DNA of 64,000 nt, taken from positions 186,001 to 250,000 of the forward strand of contig NZ_NKHK02000001.1 of NCBI RefSeq assembly GCF_002224245.2. Reading direction: 5' to 3'. Positions 18,734 through 28,406 of this stretch are shown piece by piece. The position numbers and the translations under genes are program-made. The stretch is from Moraxella sp. VT-16-12 (GTDB lineage Bacteria > Pseudomonadota > Gammaproteobacteria > Pseudomonadales > Moraxellaceae). The notes below the pieces were generated by a model. It was not told the DNA's origin and ran no database searches. It saw only the letters and a program-made list of their open reading frames with translations. Numbering within the stretch: position 1 is the stretch's first letter; each line of letters opens with the position of its first letter.

Positions 18734-19903
18734 TTATTTGGTGATTTTGGAGAAAATCTCATCATTATCCTGCCCAAGTGTAGGTGGTGGACGGCGATAG
18801 GTGGCAGGTGTGGCAGAGAGTTTAATGGGATTACCTAAGGTTTTGATGGGGCTGTTTTTAAAAGAAACCACCATTTGACGGTCATGGGTTTGGGGTAGAT
18901 TTAGGGCTTCATCAATGCTGTTGATAGAGCCACATGGCACGCCTGATTTTTCTAATAAATCAAGCCAATAAGCTCGGGGGTGGGCATCAAACACCGCTTG
19001 CATGATGGGAATGAGCGTATCTCGGTGGGCGACACGGTCAGGGTTGGTGGCAAAGCGTTCATCAGTATGCCAATCTTGCCCAAGTGCTTGACAGAGCTTG
19101 ACAAACTGACCGTCATTCCCACACGCGATGATAAAATGACCATCACTTGCCCCAAAGACTTGATAGGGCACGATACTGGCATGGGCGTTGCCCAATCTGG
19201 GTGGTCTTGTGCCTGTTGCCAGATGATTCATGCCAACATTGGCAAGCATGGCAAGCGAGCTGTCAAACAATGCTACGTCCACGTGCTGACCGACCCCTGT
19301 GTGTGTGCGAGCATATAAGGCGGTTAAAATCCCCACGGTCAGTTGTAAGCCTGAAAACAAATCCACCACCGCAACCCCAACTTTTTGTGGCTGCCCATCT
19401 GTCTCGCCTGTGATACTCATCAAACCTGACAGACCTTGTATGATATAGTCATAGCCTGCTTTGTGGGCATCTGTGCCAGTTTGCCCAAAACCTGTCAAAG
19501 ACGCATAAATAAGGCGGGGATTAATGGCACTTAGGCTGTCGTAGTCTAACCCATATTTGGCAAGATTACCCACTTTAAAATTTTCCACAAACACATCAGC
19601 ATCTTTGATAAGCTCTTTGATGACCGATTGTCCGTAGTCGCTGGTGATGTCAAGGGTGAGAGAGCGTTTGTTGCGGTTGATGGTGGCAAAATAAGCACTG
19701 GTGGCTGTGCCATCTGTATCTATAAAATTGGGCGGATTCCAATGGCGGGTTTCATCGCCGACATCAGGGCGTTCTATTTTTATCACGTCCGCCCCAAAAT
19801 CCGCCAAAATCTGCGTGGCAGAAGGGGCTGCCAGCACACGAGATAAATCAACAACTTTAATGCCATCTAGTGCCTTAGGTGAGATTGGGGAGTTTGGGGT
19901 CAT
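18734..19903 (-). CDS. gcdG: Family III (CaiB/BaiF) CoA-transferase, probably glutarate-specific
   Basis: This 389-residue CoA-transferase begins LDGIKVVDLSRVLAAPSATQILADFG and has the family aspartate in GLQLTVGILTALYAR/HVDVALFDS (near residue 200). It would move CoA from succinyl-CoA or a similar donor to an organic acid. It lies 24 bp after gcdH in the same operon. This is the arrangement of Pseudomonas putida gcdH-gcdG, where the transferase activates glutarate for GcdH. Glutarate as substrate is inferred from that neighbourhood. The family call is firm. Confidence 0.85.
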   Translation of the reverse strand: MTPNSPISPKALDGIKVVDLSRVLAAPSATQILADFGADVIKIERPDVGDETRHWNPPNFIDTDGTATSAYFATINRNKRSLTLDITSDYGQSVIKELIKDADVFVENFKVGNLAKYGLDYDSLSAINPRLIYASLTGFGQTGTDAHKAGYDYIIQGLSGLMSITGETDGQPQKVGVAVVDLFSGLQLTVGILTALYARTHTGVGQHVDVALFDSSLAMLANVGMNHLATGTRPPRLGNAHASIVPYQVFGASDGHFIIACGNDGQFVKLCQALGQDWHTDERFATNPDRVAHRDTLIPIMQAVFDAHPRAYWLDLLEKSGVPCGSINSIDEALNLPQTHDRQMVVSFKNSPIKTLGNPIKLSATPATYRRPPPTLGQDNDEIFSKITK

Positions 19904-19927: not shown

Positions 19928-21103
19928 TTAAGAAAATGCCTGCAAGCCAGTGATGGCTCTTCCAAGTATCAAAGCATGAATGTCATGTGTGCCTTCATAG
20001 GTATTGACCGCTTCTAGGTTCATGACGTGGCGGATGACATGAAACTCATCATGAATGCCATTACCACCGTGCATATCACGAGCCGTGCGAGCGATGGCTA
20101 GGGCTTTACCACAGTTGTTGCGTTTGATGAGTGAAATCATTGGTGGAGCAACTTTGTCATCGTCCATCAAACGACCGACTTGTAAAGCGGCGTGCAGTCC
20201 TAAGTTAATCTCAGTCATCATGTCAGCAAGTTTAAGCTGAACCAGTTGGGTGTTTGCTAAGGGGCGACTGAACTGTTTGCGTTCTAGTGTGTAGGTGCGA
20301 GCGGCGTTAAAACAAAACTCTGCTGACCCCATCGCCCCCCACGCAATGCCATAACGAGCTTTATTTAGGCAGCCAAACGGACCTTTTAGCCCACGAATCT
20401 CAGGAAAGGCGTTTTCTTCTGGCACAAAGACCTTATCCATGACTATCTCGCCAGTAATGGACGCTCTTAATGAAAATTTACCGTCTATTTTAGGGGCGGA
20501 TAGACCTTTTGTGCCTTTATCTAGGATAAAACCACGAATCTCACCATCATCATCTTTTGCCCAAACCACAAACACATCAGCGATGGGTGAATTGGTTATC
20601 CACATTTTAGTGCCTGTCAGCTCATAGCCACCTTGGACTTTTTTGGCACGTGTTTTCATACCCGCAGGGTCAGAGCCTGCATCAGGTTCGGTCAAACCAA
20701 AACAGCCAATGTACTCACCAGTGGCAAGTTTGGGTAGGTATTTTTGTTTTTGTTCGTCTGTGCCATAAGTATAAATGGGGTGCATGACAAGGCTTGATTG
20801 TACGCTCATCGCCGAGCGATATCCTGAATCCACGCTTTCTACCGCCCGAGCGACCAAGCCATATGCCACATGGCTCATGCCAGCACAGCCGTAGCCATCT
20901 ATTGTCATGCCAAGCAGTCCAAGCTCGCCCATCTGACGCATGATGGTGGGGTCAAAATGCTCATGTCGGTTGGCGTTGATGATGTTTGGCATCAGCTCTT
21001 TTTGACAAAAGTCCTTGGCGGTGTCATACACCATGCGTTCATCATCGCTTAAAAGGCTGTTGAGATTTAAGGCATCTTGCCAGTCAAAAGGCACAAAGCT
21101 CAT
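19928..21103 (-). CDS. gcdH: Glutaryl-CoA dehydrogenase
   Basis: GcdH oxidises and decarboxylates glutaryl-CoA to crotonyl-CoA using FAD and passes electrons to [33 protein letters not shown] and [20 protein letters not shown] are acyl-CoA dehydrogenase signatures. [19 protein letters not shown] carries the catalytic glutamate in the form specific to glutaryl-CoA dehydrogenases. Length 391 is normal. It heads a two-gene operon with gcdG and has paired palindromes (21141-21178) just upstream. It is the last dedicated step of lysine/5-aminovalerate degradation. Confidence 0.96.
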
Positions 21104-21140: not shown

Positions 21141-21178
21141 TGTTCAATATAATGAACAATGGTTCTATATAAAAAACA
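21141..21178. promoter_or_regulatory. Paired 18-bp palindromes at the gcdH promoter (putative IclR-type operators)
   Basis: Site 1, TGTTCAATATAATGAACA (21141-21158), has perfect TGTTCA/TGAACA arms. Site 2, GGTTCTATATAAAAAACA (21161-21178), is weaker. The sites start 20 bp apart and end 38 bp upstream of the gcdH ATG. The same pair architecture occurs at davT and davD/iclR. Confidence 0.75.
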
Positions 21179-21295
21179 TGAGCTTATTTAAACAGATATT
21201 TGATGATTTGTAAAGGGGTTTTGTCAGATGATTTTGGGATATTTTGACCAACATTAGCAAGCCACACCACATCAGGCGATGATGGTGAAAATGCC

Positions 21296-22393
21296 TTAAT
21301 ATTTTTTTCTCACCACGTCTTTGATGGGGTCGCTTTTGGCGATTTTTTCTATGGCTTCGTTGATGTCTTGTTTGTCCGCTTCGGGTTCTTGTTGGATAAG
21401 CGTGGCTTTTGGGTGGTATTGAAATTTACCATAAACAGGAAAATGGTCAGAGCCAACATCAGGCAACACTTGTATGTCAATCATCAAAAAATCATGACTG
21501 TGAAAAATGTGGTCAAGTGGCCAACGTAAAGGGGGGTATTTGGCGTGGAAGGTGTTAAACAGTCCACGACCTTTGCGCGGGTCAAGCAGTCCACTGATTT
21601 TTTGAAACAGTTTTGAAGTTGATGACCAAGCCACGTCATTTAAATCACCAAACACCAACACAGGCTCGTCCATGTGTTCAATCTCACGCCCCACAAGTAG
21701 CAGTTCAGCATCTCGGTCGGTGGCGGTGGCGGATTCGGTGGGGCTTGGGGGCATGGGGTGTAGGCAGTAGATATAAATCCATTCTCCTGAGCGAAGTTTG
21801 AGTTTGGATTTGATGGATGGTATGTCTTCGGTAACCCAATGGCGTATTTCACTGTCTTTTAGTTCAAGGCGACTGTATAGGTGCATGCCATACAGATTGT
21901 CAAGGGGGATTTGGACGGTATAAGTATATCCGTGATGTTCAAGTATGGACAGTTGTTCTTGCCACCAGTCATCGCTTTCTAAGGTAAGCACAATGTCAGG
22001 CTGTTTTTGGTGTATTTGCTCAATCAACAGATGGGCATTGTGGTTGTCAGTCAGGACATTAGACGTTAATAATGACAAGGTGCGTAAATCTTCTTTGCCA
22101 CGATAAACGGCAACTTCTGGACGCACTAGGGGTGTGTAGGCGATGATTTGGATGAGTTGATATACCAGACAAACGGTGCCAACCATCACCAAAAACCAAA
22201 ACAAATGATGATGTGATAGGGCAAGCCATAAGCTAACAGGCAGACTAATCAGACTGACGATGGCGATTTGTAATCGGGGAAAATCAAAAATGCGAAATAC
22301 CCAATGGTCATGCTTGATAAGTGGTAAAAGTGTTGCCACCACTGGCATCAGCACAAACAACAATAACAAACAATCCCACCATGTTAATATCAT
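21296..22393 (-). CDS. Membrane-anchored endonuclease/exonuclease/phosphatase-fold protein
   Basis: This 365-residue protein has two or three N-terminal membrane helices (LLLLFVLMPVVATLLPLI, then residues 40-90). An EEP-fold domain follows: SLLTSNVLTDNHNAHLLIEQI, LTLESDDWWQEQL (metal glutamate), VLVFGDLNDVAWSS (Asp/Asn active-site pair) and LPDVGSDHFPVYGKF (catalytic His). Such proteins face the periplasm and may cut nucleic acid or phosphoesters, but the substrate is unknown. It lies between the permease and the gcdH operator and is not an obvious part of glutarate catabolism. The C-terminal tail is charged. Confidence 0.82.
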   Translation of the reverse strand: MILTWWDCLLLLFVLMPVVATLLPLIKHDHWVFRIFDFPRLQIAIVSLISLPVSLWLALSHHHLFWFLVMVGTVCLVYQLIQIIAYTPLVRPEVAVYRGKEDLRTLSLLTSNVLTDNHNAHLLIEQIHQKQPDIVLTLESDDWWQEQLSILEHHGYTYTVQIPLDNLYGMHLYSRLELKDSEIRHWVTEDIPSIKSKLKLRSGEWIYIYCLHPMPPSPTESATATDRDAELLLVGREIEHMDEPVLVFGDLNDVAWSSTSKLFQKISGLLDPRKGRGLFNTFHAKYPPLRWPLDHIFHSHDFLMIDIQVLPDVGSDHFPVYGKFQYHPKATLIQQEPEADKQDINEAIEKIAKSDPIKDVVRKKY

Positions 22394-22483
22394 AATATTC
22401 CCAACATAAAAAGCCTATGATAGCAAATTTTGATAAAAATCGCCATTGGTGGGGGTGTGGTGTCTTGGATGTTTTGAGCAATG

Positions 22484-22511
22484 CCTGATGACCGTGCTGA
22501 CAGTCATCAGG
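22484..22511. repeat. Nine-base-pair stem-loop downstream of the permease gene
   Basis: CCTGATGAC (22484-22492) pairs perfectly with GTCATCAGG (22503-22511) around a ten-base loop, 13 bp after the permease stop. No T-tract follows on the minus strand. An mRNA end stabiliser or factor-assisted terminator is possible. Confidence 0.45.
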
Positions 22512-22523
22512 TGATGTGTGGTA

Positions 22524-24005
22524 TTAAATGGACTTTTTAGATTGATTGTTTAGGGCGAAACTGCCAACACTGTTTTCTTTGAGCCAAATTTGATTGGCTT
22601 CTTTAATGGCACGAATCTCATCGTCCATAAAGGCTTTGCTTTTGCCGGGATTTTTGGTGGTAGCATGAGCATATAACACAATCCCAAGCACAAACCATAC
22701 CCCAAAGATGCCCCATTCCACTTTTCCTAGCCCGGATGGTGAAACAGGCAGATACAAAGCAAACATGGCGATACTGATGATGAGTGTCAAAATGCCAACG
22801 GCTTTACCAAAAGGCACTTTAAACGGTCTGACCATATTTGGTTCTTTGTAACGCAAATATAAAAACGCTGCCGCCACACAAGTGTAAGCGATGACAATGC
22901 CTATGCCACCTGCGTCCACAATCCACACCAACGATTTACGCCCAAAAAGCGGAGCAAGGGTGGCAAGACCGCCAATTAAGATGATGGCATTGGCAGGGGT
23001 GTTGTATTTTGGGTGTAGTTTGGCAAGGGCGTTGGGAAGCATGTGAGCTTTTGCCATGGCAAACATTAAGCGACTGCCACCGATTAAAAACGCGTTCCAG
23101 CTTGACATGATGCCCAGCACACCACCAACAACAAGCAATCTGCCCGCCCAAGTGGAATTCCAAGCATTACTCATGGCATCGGCGGTGGCAAGCGATGAGT
23201 TTTGGGCTTGCTCTAAATTTAGGGTATGTCCAACACTCCAAGCGATACCCATGTACCACATGACTGCCATGATGAGCGAGACGATAAGAAACAGACCGAT
23301 TTGGGGGCGAGTCAGGTCTATCTCTTCGGCAGCTTGGGGTATGACATCAAAACCAACAAACATAAATGGCACCATGATGATGACGGTCATAATCCCTGCG
23401 GTGCCATTGATGAAGTTTGGTATGGCAAGATTAGATAGGTTGGCGTTTGGGTTAAATAATAATGCCCCAACAAATAGCCCAATACCCACAAGTAAGATGC
23501 CAACGACCGCCAATTTTTGAAACCATGCCGCTACTTCCATGCCACGAACATTTAGGTAGGTAACCAAAATAGAGCCTACCATACCCACAAGCACCCAAGT
23601 GGCGTACACGTCCCAACCTGCAATATTGTACATATAGCCTTGGTTGTAGTTGGGGATAAGGTATTCAATCACCGTAGGTAGTGCCACCGCTTCAAAGGCG
23701 ACCACTGATAAATAACCAAACAAAATGCTCCATGAACACAAAAACGAGATGTGTACCCCAAAGGCTCGGTGTGTGTAGGTGTGTTCCCCACCTGTGATGG
23801 GCATACAAGCTGCAAGCTCAGCATAGGCAAAGCCGATGAGTATCACTGCAAATCCGCCAAGCAAAAACGCCAAGACAGCACCCCAAAGACCTGCTGATGC
23901 TACCCAGCCACCTGCCAAAACAACCCACCCCCAACCAACCATTGCCCCAAAAGCTAGGGCAATGATGTCCACGGTACTAAGAGATTTTTTAAAATTATCC
24001 GTCAT
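22524..24005 (-). CDS. APC-family amino acid permease (probable 5-aminovalerate/GABA uptake)
   Basis: This 493-residue inner-membrane transporter has about twelve hydrophobic helices. The helix-1 motif ALAFGAMVGWGWVVLAGGW is of the APC amino acid/H+ symporter type. AYAELAACMPITGGEHTYTHRAFG is the conserved TM2-TM3 region. The tail is hydrophilic. It begins 50 bp after davT on the same strand with a normal ribosome site and no promoter signal, so the two are probably one operon. The substrate is inferred from this linkage to be 5-aminovalerate, GABA or a similar omega-amino acid. Confidence 0.85.
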   Translation of the reverse strand: MTDNFKKSLSTVDIIALAFGAMVGWGWVVLAGGWVASAGLWGAVLAFLLGGFAVILIGFAYAELAACMPITGGEHTYTHRAFGVHISFLCSWSILFGYLSVVAFEAVALPTVIEYLIPNYNQGYMYNIAGWDVYATWVLVGMVGSILVTYLNVRGMEVAAWFQKLAVVGILLVGIGLFVGALLFNPNANLSNLAIPNFINGTAGIMTVIIMVPFMFVGFDVIPQAAEEIDLTRPQIGLFLIVSLIMAVMWYMGIAWSVGHTLNLEQAQNSSLATADAMSNAWNSTWAGRLLVVGGVLGIMSSWNAFLIGGSRLMFAMAKAHMLPNALAKLHPKYNTPANAIILIGGLATLAPLFGRKSLVWIVDAGGIGIVIAYTCVAAAFLYLRYKEPNMVRPFKVPFGKAVGILTLIISIAMFALYLPVSPSGLGKVEWGIFGVWFVLGIVLYAHATTKNPGKSKAFMDDEIRAIKEANQIWLKENSVGSFALNNQSKKSI

Positions 24006-24055
24006 GATAAACTCCTTTTAATCAGACCAATGTGTTGCTCAAAACTTTTAAATCA

Positions 24056-25312
24056 TCAATCCTTAAAAAACGTTTTGATAATCTGCAAGGCTTCATCAAA
24101 CACATCATCTGGTATGGTTAAAGGCATCATGACTCTGATGGTATTAAAGTGTGTGCCACAAGAAGCAAGCAGTAAGCCATGTTCAAAGGCGTGCTTTTTT
24201 AGGGCATTGGTGGCATCTACATCAGGATTACCATCTTTATCTACCAAGTCAAAGGCAAGCATGGCGCCTTTATGGCGGACATGACTGATGGCAGGCGAGT
24301 TTAGGGCATTTAAAAATGTTGCCATTTTATGACCAATGTCTTGGGATTTTTGAAGTAGGTTTTCGTTTTTGATGATTTTGATGACTTCTAAGGCAGCGAC
24401 CGTGCCAAGTGGTGAGCCTGCATAAGTGCCACCTAAGCCACCGACCTGCGGAGCGTCCATGATGTCAGCACGCCCAATCAGTGCCGAGATGGGAAAGCCA
24501 CCTGCCATAGATTTGGCACAGGTCATGACATCAGGCTCCACGCCAAGCTGTTCACTGGCAAAGAGCGTGCCTGTCCGCCCAAATCCGCATTGCACTTCAT
24601 CAAAAATCAACACGATGCCATGTTTATCACACACATCACGGAGTGCTTTGGCAAATGATGGGGTAAGCTGATGAAAGCCCCCTTCGCCTTGTACAGGCTC
24701 AATAATCATCGCTGCCACTTCTGATGGGTCAATGTCGCATTTAAAAATCATATCAAGTCCACGCAGTGCGTCATCTTCTGTGATGTTGTTTTCCACACAA
24801 GGAAAAGGTGCGTGATAGATGGACGGTGGCATAGGACCAAAATTCTTTTTGTAGGGCACAACCTTGCCTGTCAGCCCCATTGCCAGCAAGGTGCGACCGT
24901 GCCAGCCACCACTAAATGCAATCACCCCAGCCCGACCTGTTTTGGCACGAGCGACTTTGATGGCGTTTTCTACGGCTTCTGCCCCTGTGGTGAGCAAAAA
25001 CGCTTTTTTGTCGCCTGTGATGGGGGCAAGTTCACACAGCTTTTCGCACAGCTCCACGTAGCTTTCATAACCCACGATTTGAGCAGAAGTGTGTGAAAAA
25101 CGGTCAAGCTGAGCTTTTACGGCATTGACGATTTGCGGATGGCTATGCCCTGTGTTCAGTACGGAGATGCCACCCACAAAATCAATATAGCGGTTGCCTT
25201 CTACATCAATGATTTCGCTATTTTTGGCACTATCAGCAAAAATGTCAAAAGCAACACCCAGTCCTGTGGGCAAAACTTTTTTACGGCGTTCTAACAAAGA
25301 TTGATTGGTCAT
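24056..25312 (-). CDS. davT: 4-aminobutyrate/5-aminovalerate aminotransferase
   Basis: This is a class III PLP aminotransferase that moves the omega-amino group of 5-aminovalerate or GABA to 2-oxoglutarate, giving glutarate or succinate semialdehyde. VGGISVLNTGHSHPQIVNAV, LLTTGAEAVENAIKVAR, LIFDEVQCGFGRTG and TCAKSMAGGFPISA (PLP lysine) are all in place. Length 418 is typical of GabT/DavT. Sequence alone does not separate GabT from DavT. Linkage to gcdG and gcdH makes the 5-aminovalerate role more likely. Two 18-bp palindromes lie immediately upstream. Confidence 0.9.
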   Translation of the reverse strand: MTNQSLLERRKKVLPTGLGVAFDIFADSAKNSEIIDVEGNRYIDFVGGISVLNTGHSHPQIVNAVKAQLDRFSHTSAQIVGYESYVELCEKLCELAPITGDKKAFLLTTGAEAVENAIKVARAKTGRAGVIAFSGGWHGRTLLAMGLTGKVVPYKKNFGPMPPSIYHAPFPCVENNITEDDALRGLDMIFKCDIDPSEVAAMIIEPVQGEGGFHQLTPSFAKALRDVCDKHGIVLIFDEVQCGFGRTGTLFASEQLGVEPDVMTCAKSMAGGFPISALIGRADIMDAPQVGGLGGTYAGSPLGTVAALEVIKIIKNENLLQKSQDIGHKMATFLNALNSPAISHVRHKGAMLAFDLVDKDGNPDVDATNALKKHAFEHGLLLASCGTHFNTIRVMMPLTIPDDVFDEALQIIKTFFKD

Positions 25313-25334
25313 GAATTACTCCCTGTGGTGGTTT

Positions 25335-25372
25335 TGTTCTGTATAATAAACAAATGTTCTATATATAGAATA
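25335..25372. promoter_or_regulatory. Paired 18-bp palindromes at the davT promoter (putative IclR-type operators)
   Basis: Site 1 is TGTTCTGTATAATAAACA (25335-25352) and site 2 is TGTTCTATATATAGAATA (25355-25372). The starts are 20 bp apart. The nearer site is only 23 bp upstream of the davT ATG, where bound protein would block the promoter or early transcription. Confidence 0.75.
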
Positions 25373-25443
25373 TATCCATATAAAACCATATTTTTGCTGT
25401 CTTGGCAATCAATTTTTTGTAAATTTTAAAAGTTTTTGCCAAT

Positions 25444-25478
25444 AAAAAACCCTTGATAAATACTTCTTATCAAGGGTT
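25444..25478 (-). terminator. Rho-independent terminator of davD
   Basis: AACCCTTGATAA (25448-25459) and TTATCAAGGGTT (25467-25478) form a perfect twelve-base stem. On the minus strand it runs into a T-tract (25444-25449). It separates davD from the davT operator just downstream. Confidence 0.92.
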
Positions 25479-25483
25479 GGGTA

Positions 25484-26941
25484 TTAGCTGATGTCCAAAC
25501 ACCAGTATTTGGTGCTGATGTATTCATCTATGCCGTATTTTGAGCCTTCACGGCCAAAGCCTGACTGTTTGACACCGCCAAATGGGGCGACTTCGGTGGA
25601 CAGTAGCCCTGTGTTTTGGGCGACCATGCCATATTCTAGGCTTTCAGACACTCGCCAAGCCCGTGCCAAGTCTTTGGTATAAAAATAAGCCGCCAATCCA
25701 TAGATGGTGTCATTGGCTTGATTGATGACTTCTTGTTCATCATCAAACACAAAAACAGGAGCGATGGGGGCAAAAATCTCTTCATGAGCAATACGCATCT
25801 CATCGGTGATGTCGGTGATGATGGTTGGTAAAAAACACGTGGCGTGCGTGGGGTGGGGTGTGCCACCTGTGACGATGGTTGCTCCTTTGTCGGTGGCATC
25901 TTTGAGTAGTGTTTGGGTTTTGTGTAGGGCGTCTTGGTTGATAAGACAGCCAATGTCCACACCATCAATAAGCCCATTGCCTACGGTTAGGCTTTCTACT
26001 TGGGCTTTAAATTTGCTGATAAATTCATCTTTGATGGTACGATGAACATAAATGCGGTTGGCACACACGCACGTTTGCCCTGCGTTGCGGTATTTGGAAG
26101 TAATTGCTCCATCTACGGCTTTATCAATGTCGGCATCATCAAAGACGATAAAGGGTGCATTACCCCCCAATTCTAGCGACAGTTTTTTGATGGTGCTGGC
26201 ACATTGTGCCATCAATATCCGCCCCACTTCAGTAGAGCCTGTAAAGGAGAGTTTTTTGATGCGGTCATCTTCGGTCAGCACTTTGCCAATGTTGCCAGAT
26301 TTGCCTGTGATGACGGATAATACGCCATCAGGTATGCCTGCTTGTTTGGCAAGATAAGCCAAGGCTAAGGCAGAAAACGGCGTTTCACTGGCAGGTCGGA
26401 CTATCATTGTGCAACCTGCTGCTAGGGCAGGAGCGACTTTTCTGGTAATCATCGCTGCTGGAAAATTCCAAGGGGTGATGGCGGCACACACGCCAATGGG
26501 CTGTTTTAATACCACATAGCGAAGGCGGGTGTTTGGACTGGCGATGACATCACCATAGACACGTTTGGCCTCATCAGCAAACCATCTGATAAAGCTGTTG
26601 GCATAGCTTACCTCGCCCCTTGCTTCTTTTAGGGGCTTGCCTTGCTCATTTGTCATGATGATTGCCAAATCGTCAAGATTTTCATCTATCAAATCCGCCC
26701 AGCGATGTAAAATCTTTGCACGCTCATGAACGCTTTTGGCTGACCACGCTGCCAAAGCCACCGTAGCTAAACGAACAGCTTCGCTAGCTTCATCAGCACT
26801 TAGACTTGGCACACAGCCGATACGCTCACCTGTAAAAGGGTTTTTAACATCTAAGGTGTCGCCAGAGTGAGCGGACTGCCAGACACCTGCCACAAAGGCG
26901 TTTTGTTGAAAAAGGTCAGGATTTTTTAAAGATAGGCTCAT
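25484..26941 (-). CDS. davD: Succinate/glutarate-semialdehyde dehydrogenase
   Basis: This 485-residue NAD(P)-dependent aldehyde dehydrogenase is of the GabD/DavD type. TPWNFPAAMITRKVAPALAAG, SFTGSTEVGR, LELGGNAPFIVFDDADID (general-base Glu) and NAGQTCVCANR (catalytic Cys) are present. It oxidises the semialdehyde made by DavT to glutarate or succinate. It is transcribed alone from the iclR-facing promoter, with paired operators 33 bp upstream, and ends in a strong terminator. Assignment to glutarate semialdehyde rests on the neighbours. Confidence 0.92.
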   Translation of the reverse strand: MSLSLKNPDLFQQNAFVAGVWQSAHSGDTLDVKNPFTGERIGCVPSLSADEASEAVRLATVALAAWSAKSVHERAKILHRWADLIDENLDDLAIIMTNEQGKPLKEARGEVSYANSFIRWFADEAKRVYGDVIASPNTRLRYVVLKQPIGVCAAITPWNFPAAMITRKVAPALAAGCTMIVRPASETPFSALALAYLAKQAGIPDGVLSVITGKSGNIGKVLTEDDRIKKLSFTGSTEVGRILMAQCASTIKKLSLELGGNAPFIVFDDADIDKAVDGAITSKYRNAGQTCVCANRIYVHRTIKDEFISKFKAQVESLTVGNGLIDGVDIGCLINQDALHKTQTLLKDATDKGATIVTGGTPHPTHATCFLPTIITDITDEMRIAHEEIFAPIAPVFVFDDEQEVINQANDTIYGLAAYFYTKDLARAWRVSESLEYGMVAQNTGLLSTEVAPFGGVKQSGFGREGSKYGIDEYISTKYWCLDIS

Positions 26942-26973
26942 GGTGCGTCCTTGGGATATTAGTTTTGAAAATT

Positions 26974-27011
26974 TGTTCTATATATTGAATATATGTTCAA
27001 TATACAGTACA
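26974..27011. promoter_or_regulatory. Paired 18-bp palindromes in the davD/iclR intergenic region
   Basis: Site 1 is TGTTCTATATATTGAATA (26974-26991) and site 2 is TGTTCAATATACAGTACA (26994-27011), again with starts 20 bp apart. They lie 33 bp from the davD start and 65 bp from the iclR start, so one bound regulator could control davD and its own gene. Confidence 0.75.
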
Positions 27012-27076
27012 ATATTAGCACCATTCATCATTTTATACAAGTGATTTTATCCTAAGTTTAACAATTTGGAAACCGT

Positions 27077-27844
27077 ATGAGCGACAAACCTAAATCCACC
27101 AGCGTACCTGCCTTAGAAAAAGCCTTTGAGATTTTGGACTTTATTACAAAAAGCCCCACGCCTGTCTCGTCTGCCACCATCGCTAAGGAGCTGTCCTTGG
27201 CTCGCTCCACCACGCACAACATCTTGCAGGTTCTGACAAATAAAGGTGTGTTGCACAAAGACGGCAACCATTTATTTAGTTTGGGTTCGTATCTGTTGTA
27301 CTGGGCAGGGCGATTTGAAGTAGAAAAGGGCGTGGTGGCACTGTTTCATGAAATGGCGGTGGGCTTTGATGTTTTAACGCCTTATACCATCACCTTATCC
27401 ACTTTGGATTTTGAGCATGGGGAGACGGTGTTTTTGAGCAGTCATGCAGGGTCTAGTGCGATAGATTTTGTCTTTCGGCGTGGCGTGCGTGTGCCTGCAG
27501 TGTTTTCAGCGACAGGCAAAGCAATTTTAAGTCAGTATCCTTTTGATAAAGTGGTGGCAATGTACGGCAAATTTCCCACCCCTTTGACAGAGCGGGGTGT
27601 GGCAGATTTTGATGGTTTAAAAGCAGAATTTGATGACATCAAACAAACTCGTCTATCACTTGATAATGGTCAGCTTAGGCTTGGCATGACGTGCATGGGA
27701 ACATATATCAGGGGTCAAGATGGTGTGCGTCTTGGGATTGCGGTGTCATTATCTGACAGTGAGTACCATGAGCATAAAGACACCATCGGTCAAGCCATCA
27801 TCACTTTGGCACAGCAGATTGAGCGGGGGCTTGGGGTAAGTTGA
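27077..27844 (+). CDS. IclR-family transcriptional regulator
   Basis: This 255-residue regulator has an N-terminal winged helix (VPALEKAFEILDFI, then SATIAKELSLARSTTHNILQVL, residues 11-55) and the IclR effector domain (FSATGKAILSQYP, then GMTCMGTYIRGQDGVRLGIAVSLSD). It is divergent from davD with paired palindromes between them. Pseudomonas regulates gcdHG with a LysR protein, GcdR, so an IclR protein here would be a different control. Whether it represses or activates, and with which effector, cannot be read. Its 3' end overlaps the convergent glycosylase gene by 44 bp. Confidence 0.9.
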   Translation: MSDKPKSTSVPALEKAFEILDFITKSPTPVSSATIAKELSLARSTTHNILQVLTNKGVLHKDGNHLFSLGSYLLYWAGRFEVEKGVVALFHEMAVGFDVLTPYTITLSTLDFEHGETVFLSSHAGSSAIDFVFRRGVRVPAVFSATGKAILSQYPFDKVVAMYGKFPTPLTERGVADFDGLKAEFDDIKQTRLSLDNGQLRLGMTCMGTYIRGQDGVRLGIAVSLSDSEYHEHKDTIGQAIITLAQQIERGLGVS

Positions 27845-28406
27845 TTTGAGCAAACACCGCTTGATAATGACGTGCTTTTTGCTCTAATGCCAAAGGATAT
27901 GCTCGTGATGATGATGGCAAGCGGTGCAAACGGATGGTTTTACCATTGATGGATAGGGGTGATGACTGTCCTATTTTTGGGGCTGGGGTATGACCAAATT
28001 CACCAAGCAAAATTTTGGTTGCCTTTTCGCCTGTGGTGATGATGTGCGTGCAATCTGGCAAAGTCTTTAATAACCCTTTGATGTCTGTTGTTTCAACAAT
28101 GGTCAAAAATTTATCAGATGCGTTATCTTGCTGGCGAATGACGGCTTTGGCGGTGTCATAGATGGCAATGCCTTGTCGGTACAAAAAGTCTTTGATGAGA
28201 TGTTCTTTAAAGGTTTTACCATCAATAAAATACCCCTTATCTTGGTAAAACACCACGCCCATAATCCGCCAAAAATCATTATTGATGTTAGGATAATAAA
28301 ATCTCATCGCCCAACGAGCAGGTGGCGGGGGAAAACTGCCTAATATCAGCACTTTGGCATGGGGCATGACAAAGGGAGCTAAGGGGTGGTACTCAACAGA
28401 TGACAT
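27801..28406 (-). CDS. Uracil-DNA glycosylase superfamily protein (hypoxanthine-DNA glycosylase-like)
   Basis: This is a 201-residue protein of the UDG fold. VLILGSFPPPPARWAMRFYY carries motif 1 of the single-domain group related to hypoxanthine-DNA glycosylases, and NNDFWRIMGVVF follows. TRLHRLPSSS corresponds to the LPSTSPA-like second motif (here IRLHRLPSSSRAYPLAL). It would excise damaged bases in the cytosol. Specificity is not determinable. It begins 11 bp after the uvrB stop, so the two repair genes may share a transcript, and it overlaps iclR tail to tail. Confidence 0.78.
   Translation of the reverse strand: MSSVEYHPLAPFVMPHAKVLILGSFPPPPARWAMRFYYPNINNDFWRIMGVVFYQDKGYFIDGKTFKEHLIKDFLYRQGIAIYDTAKAVIRQQDNASDKFLTIVETTDIKGLLKTLPDCTHIITTGEKATKILLGEFGHTPAPKIGQSSPLSINGKTIRLHRLPSSSRAYPLALEQKARHYQAVFAQINLPQAPAQSAVPK

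Follow-up and report, generated by a model that had tools for sequence, protein, structure and literature searches.

The stretch of DNA analysed here, 64,000 nucleotides of Moraxella sp. VT-16-12 (contig NZ_NKHK02000001.1, positions 186,001 to 250,000; hereafter the window), carries a cluster of catabolic genes with an adjacent regulator of the IclR family, IclR-1, and three pairs of 18-bp palindromes in their promoter regions. From the gene set, the inferred route runs from 5-aminovalerate through glutarate semialdehyde, glutarate and glutaryl-CoA to crotonyl-CoA, and davD and davT could serve gamma-aminobutyrate as well. The genes and predicted operators are as follows.

18734..19903, minus strand: CaiB/BaiF CoA-transferase, gcdG-like; the nearest model is succinate-glutarate CoA-transferase (453 bits, cutoff 750)
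19928..21103, minus strand: gcdH, glutaryl-CoA dehydrogenase; the best chain is 1SIR (glutaryl-CoA dehydrogenase) at 605 bits, with scores below the cutoff of the NCBIfam models
21141..21178, minus strand: predicted operator pair O-gcdH, palindromes 21141-21158 and 21161-21178, 7 bp downstream of the putative gcdH -10 box
24056..25312, minus strand: davT/gabT-type aminotransferase; TIGR00700, 512 bits, cutoff 506.65
25335..25372, minus strand: predicted operator pair O-davT, palindromes 25335-25352 and 25355-25372
25484..26941, minus strand: davD/gabD-type semialdehyde dehydrogenase; TIGR01780, 694.8 bits, cutoff 646.35
26974..27011, no strand: predicted operator pair O-davD/iclR, palindromes 26974-26991 and 26994-27011, in the divergent intergenic region, overlapping the putative iclR promoter and abutting the putative davD -10 box
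27077..27844, plus strand: iclR-1, IclR-family regulator of 255 aa with recognition helix ARSTTHN; BlcR (3MQ0) is the closest solved structure

Three palindrome pairs are confined to the genes of one inferred route

An initial annotation of this DNA had placed palindromes at 21141, 21161, 25335, 25355, 26974 and 26994. All six lie exactly there, and they form three pairs with starts precisely 20 bp apart at the gcdH, davT and davD/iclR promoters, as had been proposed. A search of both strands of the window with TGTTCNATATANNGAACA at up to three mismatches returned 14 matches against 2.74 expected, a number reached by none of 100 shuffles of the window; 12 of the 14 are the six sites, each read on both strands. 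The sites are thus real, but the consensus first given for them was loose, and mismatches to TGTTCNATATANNGAACA on the better strand range from none (21141) through one (25355, 26974 and 26994) to two (21161 and 25335). The gcdH-proximal site, singled out earlier as the best palindrome, shares that rank: the halves of 21141 agree at 8 of 9 positions and so do those of 25355, with 7 of 9 at 26974 and 6 of 9 at 21161, 25335 and 26994.

We extended the search to the whole genome (2,154,924 bases). At up to one mismatch to TGTTCWRTATAWNRAAYA, five of the six sites were recovered on the plus strand and 26994 on the minus strand, together with one further match (C11:11216) that lies directly before an open reading frame and has no partner at 20 bp. 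At three mismatches single sites showed no excess (102/113 matches against 112/104 for a reversed-pattern control), and weak single sites therefore carry no information. In contrast, the 38-base pattern describing a whole pair gave, at up to three mismatches, exactly three pairs in the genome and none with the reversed control. This showed that the paired motif does not occur at random and that, as the initial annotation had claimed, it is restricted to genes of the inferred route. The six window sites scored 13.0 to 25.8 bits with a matrix for which only pairs of other Moraxella genomes were used.

The pair accompanies IclR-1 in related genomes

We next asked how the pair and the regulator are distributed in the own genus Moraxella (n=22, including the window genome, G000), a sister genus (g3, n=105) and a third genus (g93, n=175). 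One own-genus genome on a single contig (G355) matched neither the queries nor the control pattern and was treated as unsearchable. IclR-1 orthologues (E < 1e-30) were present in 6 of the 22 Moraxella genomes, in 90 of the 105 g3 genomes and in a single g93 genome (G292). Among 369 genomes drawn from the class, the window genome itself was the sole match at E 1e-20; a contig scan gave six loci, two of them orthologues (M. lacunata and a Moraxella metagenome-assembled genome), and a plasmid search gave no match. The pair pattern was found in 5/22 own-genus and 65/105 g3 genomes (one each in the latter) and in 0/175 g93 genomes. All 65 g3 pairs lie 96-430 bp before the first aligned iclR-1 codon. 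Within g3 the pair occurred in 65 of 90 genomes with IclR-1 and in none of 15 without it (Fisher p 7e-8, kinship ignored), and the 16 own-genus genomes lacking IclR-1, the unsearchable one among them, gave none. Thus, in the 5 own-genus and 65 g3 genomes that have it, the pair was never seen without IclR-1. In G292 a pair was detected by matrix (34.8), with none at three mismatches.

The spacing proved equally constant. When spacings of 19-21 were allowed, the best davD/iclR pair under the Moraxella-trained matrix was spaced 20 throughout the 21 loci, the window among them; in 20 loci it outscored every one of 400 random windows (the exception, G430, scored 1.1 against 2.3). When spacing was left free, the top two sites lay 20 bp apart in 35 of 37 promoters: 28/30 davD, 4/4 Moraxella davT and 3/3 Moraxella gcdH. 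This count draws on 41 upstream regions with a best site of at least 7.5, from which four g3 davT regions (spacings 112, 211, 294 and 294) were omitted as chance; the two exceptions are counted among davD (G443, 12; G413, 145). In a four-genome alignment the sites and adjoining bases are preserved while the flanks have diverged, as in a footprint.

Gene order was conserved as well. Of the 20 neighbourhoods first fetched, all retain iclR-davD, 19 retain davT and 15 have gcdH within the stretch; davD neighbours IclR-1 in all 30 IclR-1 loci examined. davT has a pair of its own in G000, G361, G363 and G369, and in G369 davT is inverted with its pair kept. One g3 genome, G447, contains two iclR1-davD-davT copies (L146 and L147), each with its own 20-bp pair.

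To score promoters, 400 bp before each gene were read with two matrices, one for these sites and one for those predicted for a second protein, IclR-2, described below. The null was 600 random windows of the window genome only, with maxima of 5.3 (IclR-1 matrix) and 3.3 (IclR-2 matrix) and a 99% quantile of -4.1 for IclR-1. The first IclR-1 matrix, trained on 11 Moraxella pairs, is circular for those promoters and independent for g3 and G292; a second, with four g3 pairs added, is circular for those also. In the 30 loci with IclR-1, davD scored 10.1-49.4 without exception. The davD genes of three genomes without IclR-1 all fell below these (G367, -19.4; G418, -18.1; G400, -0.5). The adjacent IclR protein, named as the ligand in the initial annotation, is very probably just that, since the pair is not seen without it, sits before its gene, and scores lowest at davD where the protein is absent.

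It is highly improbable that another regulator of the same regulon binds the sites. Within the own genome an IclR-1 query found a single IclR match at E 1e-3, IclR-1 itself (other regulator families were not searched for), and an IclR-2 query found none at 1e-15. Furthermore, the motif fits the IclR class by length, letters and tandem phase as described in PMC8222616, and the co-occurrence reported above ties it to IclR-1.

IclR-1 itself has both family domains above their gathering scores (HTH_IclR, 47.2 against 22 bits; IclR_C, 48.3 against 24 bits). Its closest solved structure over the full length is BlcR (3MQ0; 210 bits by profile and 136 by single sequence), with TtgV at 61 and 31. It falls below the cutoffs of the PcaR/PcaU/PobR model TIGR02431 (50.6 bits, cutoff 284.75), as do three IclR-2 proteins (108-121), and of the BhcR model NF045644 (78 bits, cutoff 350).

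The recognition helix is consistent with the length of the palindromes. Across 59 aligned rows for each protein, some of which are one gene fetched twice, IclR-1 has Asn33 in 57 and at position 30 Ser in 49 and Thr in 10; IclR-2 has Arg33 in 58, with one gap. Mapped by eye to Table 5 of PMC8222616, the residues are mostly Arg28 Ser29 Ser/Thr30 His32 Asn33 in IclR-1 and Lys28 Ala29 Thr30 Thr/Ser32 Arg33 in IclR-2. In that independent data set, even-length IclR motifs strongly prefer Ser30 with Asn33 and strongly avoid Arg33 (PMC8222616), and palindrome lengths of 18 bp (IclR-1) and 17 bp (IclR-2) fit the helix residues. Compared with the NGT-12-ACN subgroup (NGTYCRAW4TYGRACN), the motif agrees in even length and in GTTC-8-GAAC and partly in the inner RA/TY letters; IclR-1 carries the Ser30/Asn33 linked to that subgroup and lacks Arg33, again with positions mapped by eye.

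A second IclR protein and its putative tandem sites at gcdH

In the g3 loci inspected, gcdH is divergent from a gene for another IclR protein, IclR-2. Between the two genes lies another kind of pair, two GTTTC-7-GAAAC palindromes of 17 bp whose spacing is likewise 20 bp. An early idea that this palindrome was a LysR site was dropped, as the neighbouring gene encodes an IclR protein. At E 1e-15, most g3 genomes gave a match to IclR-2, as did G292 and G232 of g93 (48% and 43% identity) and one own-genus genome, G367; there was none in G000, G352, G353, G361, G363 or G369. Weaker matches in many other g93 genomes were taken as other IclR proteins. A pair pattern for IclR-2 was too loose to scan the 22 own-genus genomes, with fewer matches than its control in 20 of them, and IclR-2 sites were therefore judged solely by matrix on fetched promoters.

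The IclR-2 matrix gave 21.2-44.2 at gcdH in all 28 loci with IclR-2; 25 of these are the g3 promoters on which it was trained, so that only G292, G232 and G367 are untrained tests. Without IclR-2, gcdH scored 1.1 in G363, below zero in G349, G358 and the second G361 copy, 8.1 in G000 and 14.6 in G369. The last two exceed the null because the IclR-1 and IclR-2 motifs resemble each other, a resemblance that also lifts davD and davT promoters of the IclR-1 type to as much as 9.7 with this matrix. Conversely, the IclR-1 matrix gave 43.7 (G000), 46.8 (G363) and 33.3 (G369) at gcdH and at most 7.6 where IclR-2 is present, with only G413 (7.6) and G419 (5.6) above the null maximum.

G367, which has IclR-2 only, showed the reverse. 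Its IclR-1 scores were -19.4 (davD), -2.7 (davT, just above the 99% null quantile) and -11.7 (gcdH), and IclR-2-type sites, spaced 21, precede all three genes (28.2, 18.3 and 31.3). There iclR-2 is divergent from davD (L200, 10704-12137), in the place of iclR-1. In G292 (L149, 8799-10308) iclR-2 and iclR-1 stand in tandem before davD, possibly an ancestral or intermediate arrangement. G349, G358 and G361 (L214, L215 and L216) carry a second type of gcdH-gcdG (~70% and 55% identity) with neither operator; the upstream region of L216, the second G361 gcdH, is cut by a contig end.

Position of the pairs suggests an autoregulated repressor

The putative promoters and a terminator-like hairpin of the region are listed below.

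21186..21214, minus strand: gcdH core promoter, TTTACA-17-TTAAAT; pattern common to all 30 gcdH upstream regions examined
25380..25408, minus strand: davT core promoter, TTGCCA-17-TTTTAT; consensus match only
27012..27040, minus strand: davD core promoter, TTGTAT-17-TAATAT, picked by eye; 7/12 consensus letters, outside the six best promoter matches
26985..27013, plus strand: iclR-1 promoter, TTGAAT-17-TACAAT; overlaps the operator pair
25448..25478, minus strand: terminator-like hairpin, 13 pairs followed by TTTTATT, directly after the davD stop

At davD, positions 27037-27041 and 27012-27017 are invariant in the four-genome alignment. The region has 12 terminator-like hairpins against 11.3 expected, and the one listed has the longest stem; as it lies between davD and davT, davT would be transcribed separately.

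At gcdH and davT the pair follows the putative -10 box by 7 bp, at davD it follows directly, and at iclR it overlaps the putative promoter. Since the pairs follow or overlap the promoters in this way, IclR-1 is most likely an autoregulated repressor that binds as two dimers, an arrangement for which the family offers precedent (PMC8222616). Each 18-bp palindrome would hold one dimer, and the two would be neighbours on the same side of the helix, two helical turns apart. Bound IclR-1 would then block initiation at gcdH, davT and davD and, given the overlap, repress iclR itself, and a metabolite of the 5-aminovalerate/glutarate route would release it. We give a probability of roughly 80% to this explanation as a whole, that is, to the three pairs as operators of IclR-1 (27077-27844) with two dimers each, repression, autorepression and metabolite release. 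The pairs, their confinement, conservation and co-occurrence with IclR-1 can be read directly from the DNA, and from these we infer binding, repression, the two dimers and an effector.

The same operators could instead serve IclR-1 as an activator or dual regulator that is switched on by its effector. PcaU and PobR are IclR-family activators or dual regulators. The family is described as including activators, repressors and dual regulators (PMC8222616), and iclR-1 is divergent from davD. Against this, a conserved -10 box precedes the gcdH pair, by 7-8 bp in Moraxella, a placement that suits a block and not activation, and BlcR, the closest solved relative, is a repressor (PMC6402643). Activation thus appears unlikely.

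An action of the palindromes in the transcript, as 5' leader hairpins controlling translation or attenuation, is very improbable. The davD leader does fold well for its composition (z -4.1, equalled by 0/200 shuffles), but the other two leaders are no better than shuffles (z -1.19 and -0.60), and at iclR the pair overlaps the putative promoter and not the leader. The exact 20-bp spacing and the co-occurrence with IclR-1 would also be left unexplained.

Several observations weigh against repression by IclR-1 through these pairs. The pair is missing at up to three mismatches in 25 of the 90 g3 genomes with IclR-1, of which the part that was fetched scores weaker pairs by matrix. G352 has IclR-1, and IclR-2 was not found there, yet its davT lacks a pair (-14.5); this davT begins ~70 bp after davD. 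G400, without IclR-1, retains a weak davD match spaced 20 bp whose score of -0.5 exceeds the 99% null quantile and stays below the null maximum, perhaps the remnant of a decayed operator. The loss of the operator at davD is partly linkage, because operator and iclR-1 are neighbours. Finally, the region contains 19 sigma-70 matches against 19.3 expected by chance, and wide conservation backs the gcdH promoter alone. In G400 (L203), davD adjoins gcdH.

For the effector, our first and tentative guess, well short of even odds, is the C5 semialdehyde that DavT would produce and DavD consume, because davD adjoins IclR-1 in all 30 loci and because BlcR represses a pathway for the C4 analogue; glutarate and 5-aminovalerate rank after it. 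For 5-aminovalerate/glutarate catabolism in Moraxellaceae, the analysis yields a regulator with its predicted operator, together with a few candidate effectors. If IclR-1 answers to the C5 semialdehyde, glutarate or 5-aminovalerate, it would be usable as a biosensor.

Operators at gcdH appear to have been exchanged between the paralogues

We compared the gcdH promoters with respect to the operator that follows them. TTTAC[A/T]-17-(TTWAAT or TAAACT) precedes the operator in all 30 gcdH upstream regions compared, of which three have IclR-1 pairs and the other 27 have IclR-2 pairs. The -10 letters were made degenerate after inspection of the sequences, no random expectation accompanies the pattern, and four upstream regions of more distant gcdH genes (G232, G349, G358 and the second G361 copy) were omitted. 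The gap from the -10 box to the operator is 7-8 bp in four Moraxella genomes with either operator, 0-1 bp in g3 and -3 in G292. In G000, G363 and G369, all without IclR-2, an IclR-1 pair follows this same conserved promoter. In a tree of the gcdH protein these three group together (98/94); G367 and G292 are placed next to this clade, and g3 falls outside it. A UvrB tree for dating the losses was dropped because several of its forks were poorly resolved.

The simplest history suggested by these comparisons is that an ancestral IclR-2 operator at gcdH was replaced once by an IclR-1 operator upon loss of IclR-2. gcdH would originally have been under IclR-2, and its control by IclR-1, like that of davT, is probably derived. 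Both matrices recognise the G369 gcdH operator (GTTTCAATATACAGAACT then TGTACAGTATATTGAATA), which may be an intermediate or hybrid between the two types. Control of the pathway seems to have passed between two related repressors through changes of the operators in place. We regard the fuller account as fairly likely, with less confidence than the assignment of the operators to IclR-1: in g3, IclR-1 would act on davD-davT and IclR-2 on gcdH; in Moraxella, each regulator would have captured the whole pathway in a different lineage once the other was lost (IclR-1 in the window genome and its relatives, IclR-2 in G367), with operators converted in place between the 18-bp and 17-bp forms under an unchanged core promoter and with G369 as the hybrid. 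What can be seen directly is the difference in operators at one and the same place, and the history is read from it. Such an apparent exchange between two IclR paralogues is the new element here, and it was not visible from the window alone.

Four points weaken this history. The cluster is patchy across its own genus, and transfer of the cluster between species is possible. The davD of G367 is only 60% identical to that of the window and may for that reason be foreign, acquired together with IclR-2. G367 is 88% complete, and the absence of IclR-1 there rests on this one draft genome. If the history is true, it would be a natural, mirror-image record of a regulator capturing a promoter from its paralogue. 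It would also offer a compact system for operator turnover, with two paralogues, motifs of 17 and 18 bp that follow a single conserved promoter, both outcomes within one genus and a possible intermediate.

Relation to described regulators

The operator had been called previously undescribed. Its kind is already known, since tandem palindromes 18-22 nt apart were predicted for 94 of 181 IclR groups (Suvorova and Gelfand 2021, PMC8222616), and the present operator is therefore not of a new kind. The pairs fall within that range of distances between centres, and they share the letters GTTC...GAAC with group 1 and even length with NGT-12-ACN. The main text of PMC8222616 contains no occurrence of Psychrobacter, Moraxella or glutar-, and its supplementary tables may list this group. 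The operator set is thus real and of a known class, its regulator is well supported, and the evolutionary record is unusual.

The initial annotation had also contrasted this circuit with the LysR control of gcdH in Pseudomonas, and the contrast stands. In P. putida, GcdR, a LysR protein with glutarate as effector, activates gcdH (PMC6667623), and the regulators of glutarate catabolism that we found described are this protein and the GntR protein CsiR (PMC6667623). Both control glutarate catabolism including gcdH, whereas the regulators beside the genes here are two IclR proteins. No LysR gene was found divergent from gcdH, whose neighbour is the 21296-22393 gene in the window and IclR-2 in the g3 loci inspected; LysR genes elsewhere in the genome were not searched for.

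BlcR of Agrobacterium tumefaciens is likewise an IclR-family repressor. It binds as a tetramer and controls blcABC, with a pathway from gamma-butyrolactone through succinate semialdehyde to succinate (PMC6402643); that intermediate is the C4 analogue of the DavD substrate. IclR-1 differs in its setting, which is davD and not blcABC. PcaU, PobR and PcaR belong to the same family and have similar half-sites (TGTTCG in PcaU; PMC8222616), but they serve aromatic catabolism and have three boxes as opposed to the two full palindromes of the IclR-1 pairs; the PcaU and PobR operators include an additional direct half-site repeat (PMC8222616). In strain R. CL21 an IclR protein taken by the authors as PcaR limits glutarate use, and the target of repression that they propose is a promiscuous CoA-transferase and not gcdH (PMC12543098). 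In the open-licence literature, judged by titles and abstract openings, we found no description of IclR control of davD, davT or gcdH.

Other genes of the cluster

Downstream of davT, at 22524..24005 on the minus strand, lies a gene for an APC-family amino acid permease. Between it and gcdH, a gene of the endonuclease/exonuclease/phosphatase family (21296-22393) is the upstream neighbour of gcdH on the same strand. It seems to be mobile within the cluster, because its G361 homologue adjoins iclR-1 instead. A DNA-deoxyinosine/uracil glycosylase-like gene (27801-28406; 45.9 bits, below the cutoff of 80) overlaps the 3' end of iclR-1 on the opposite strand.

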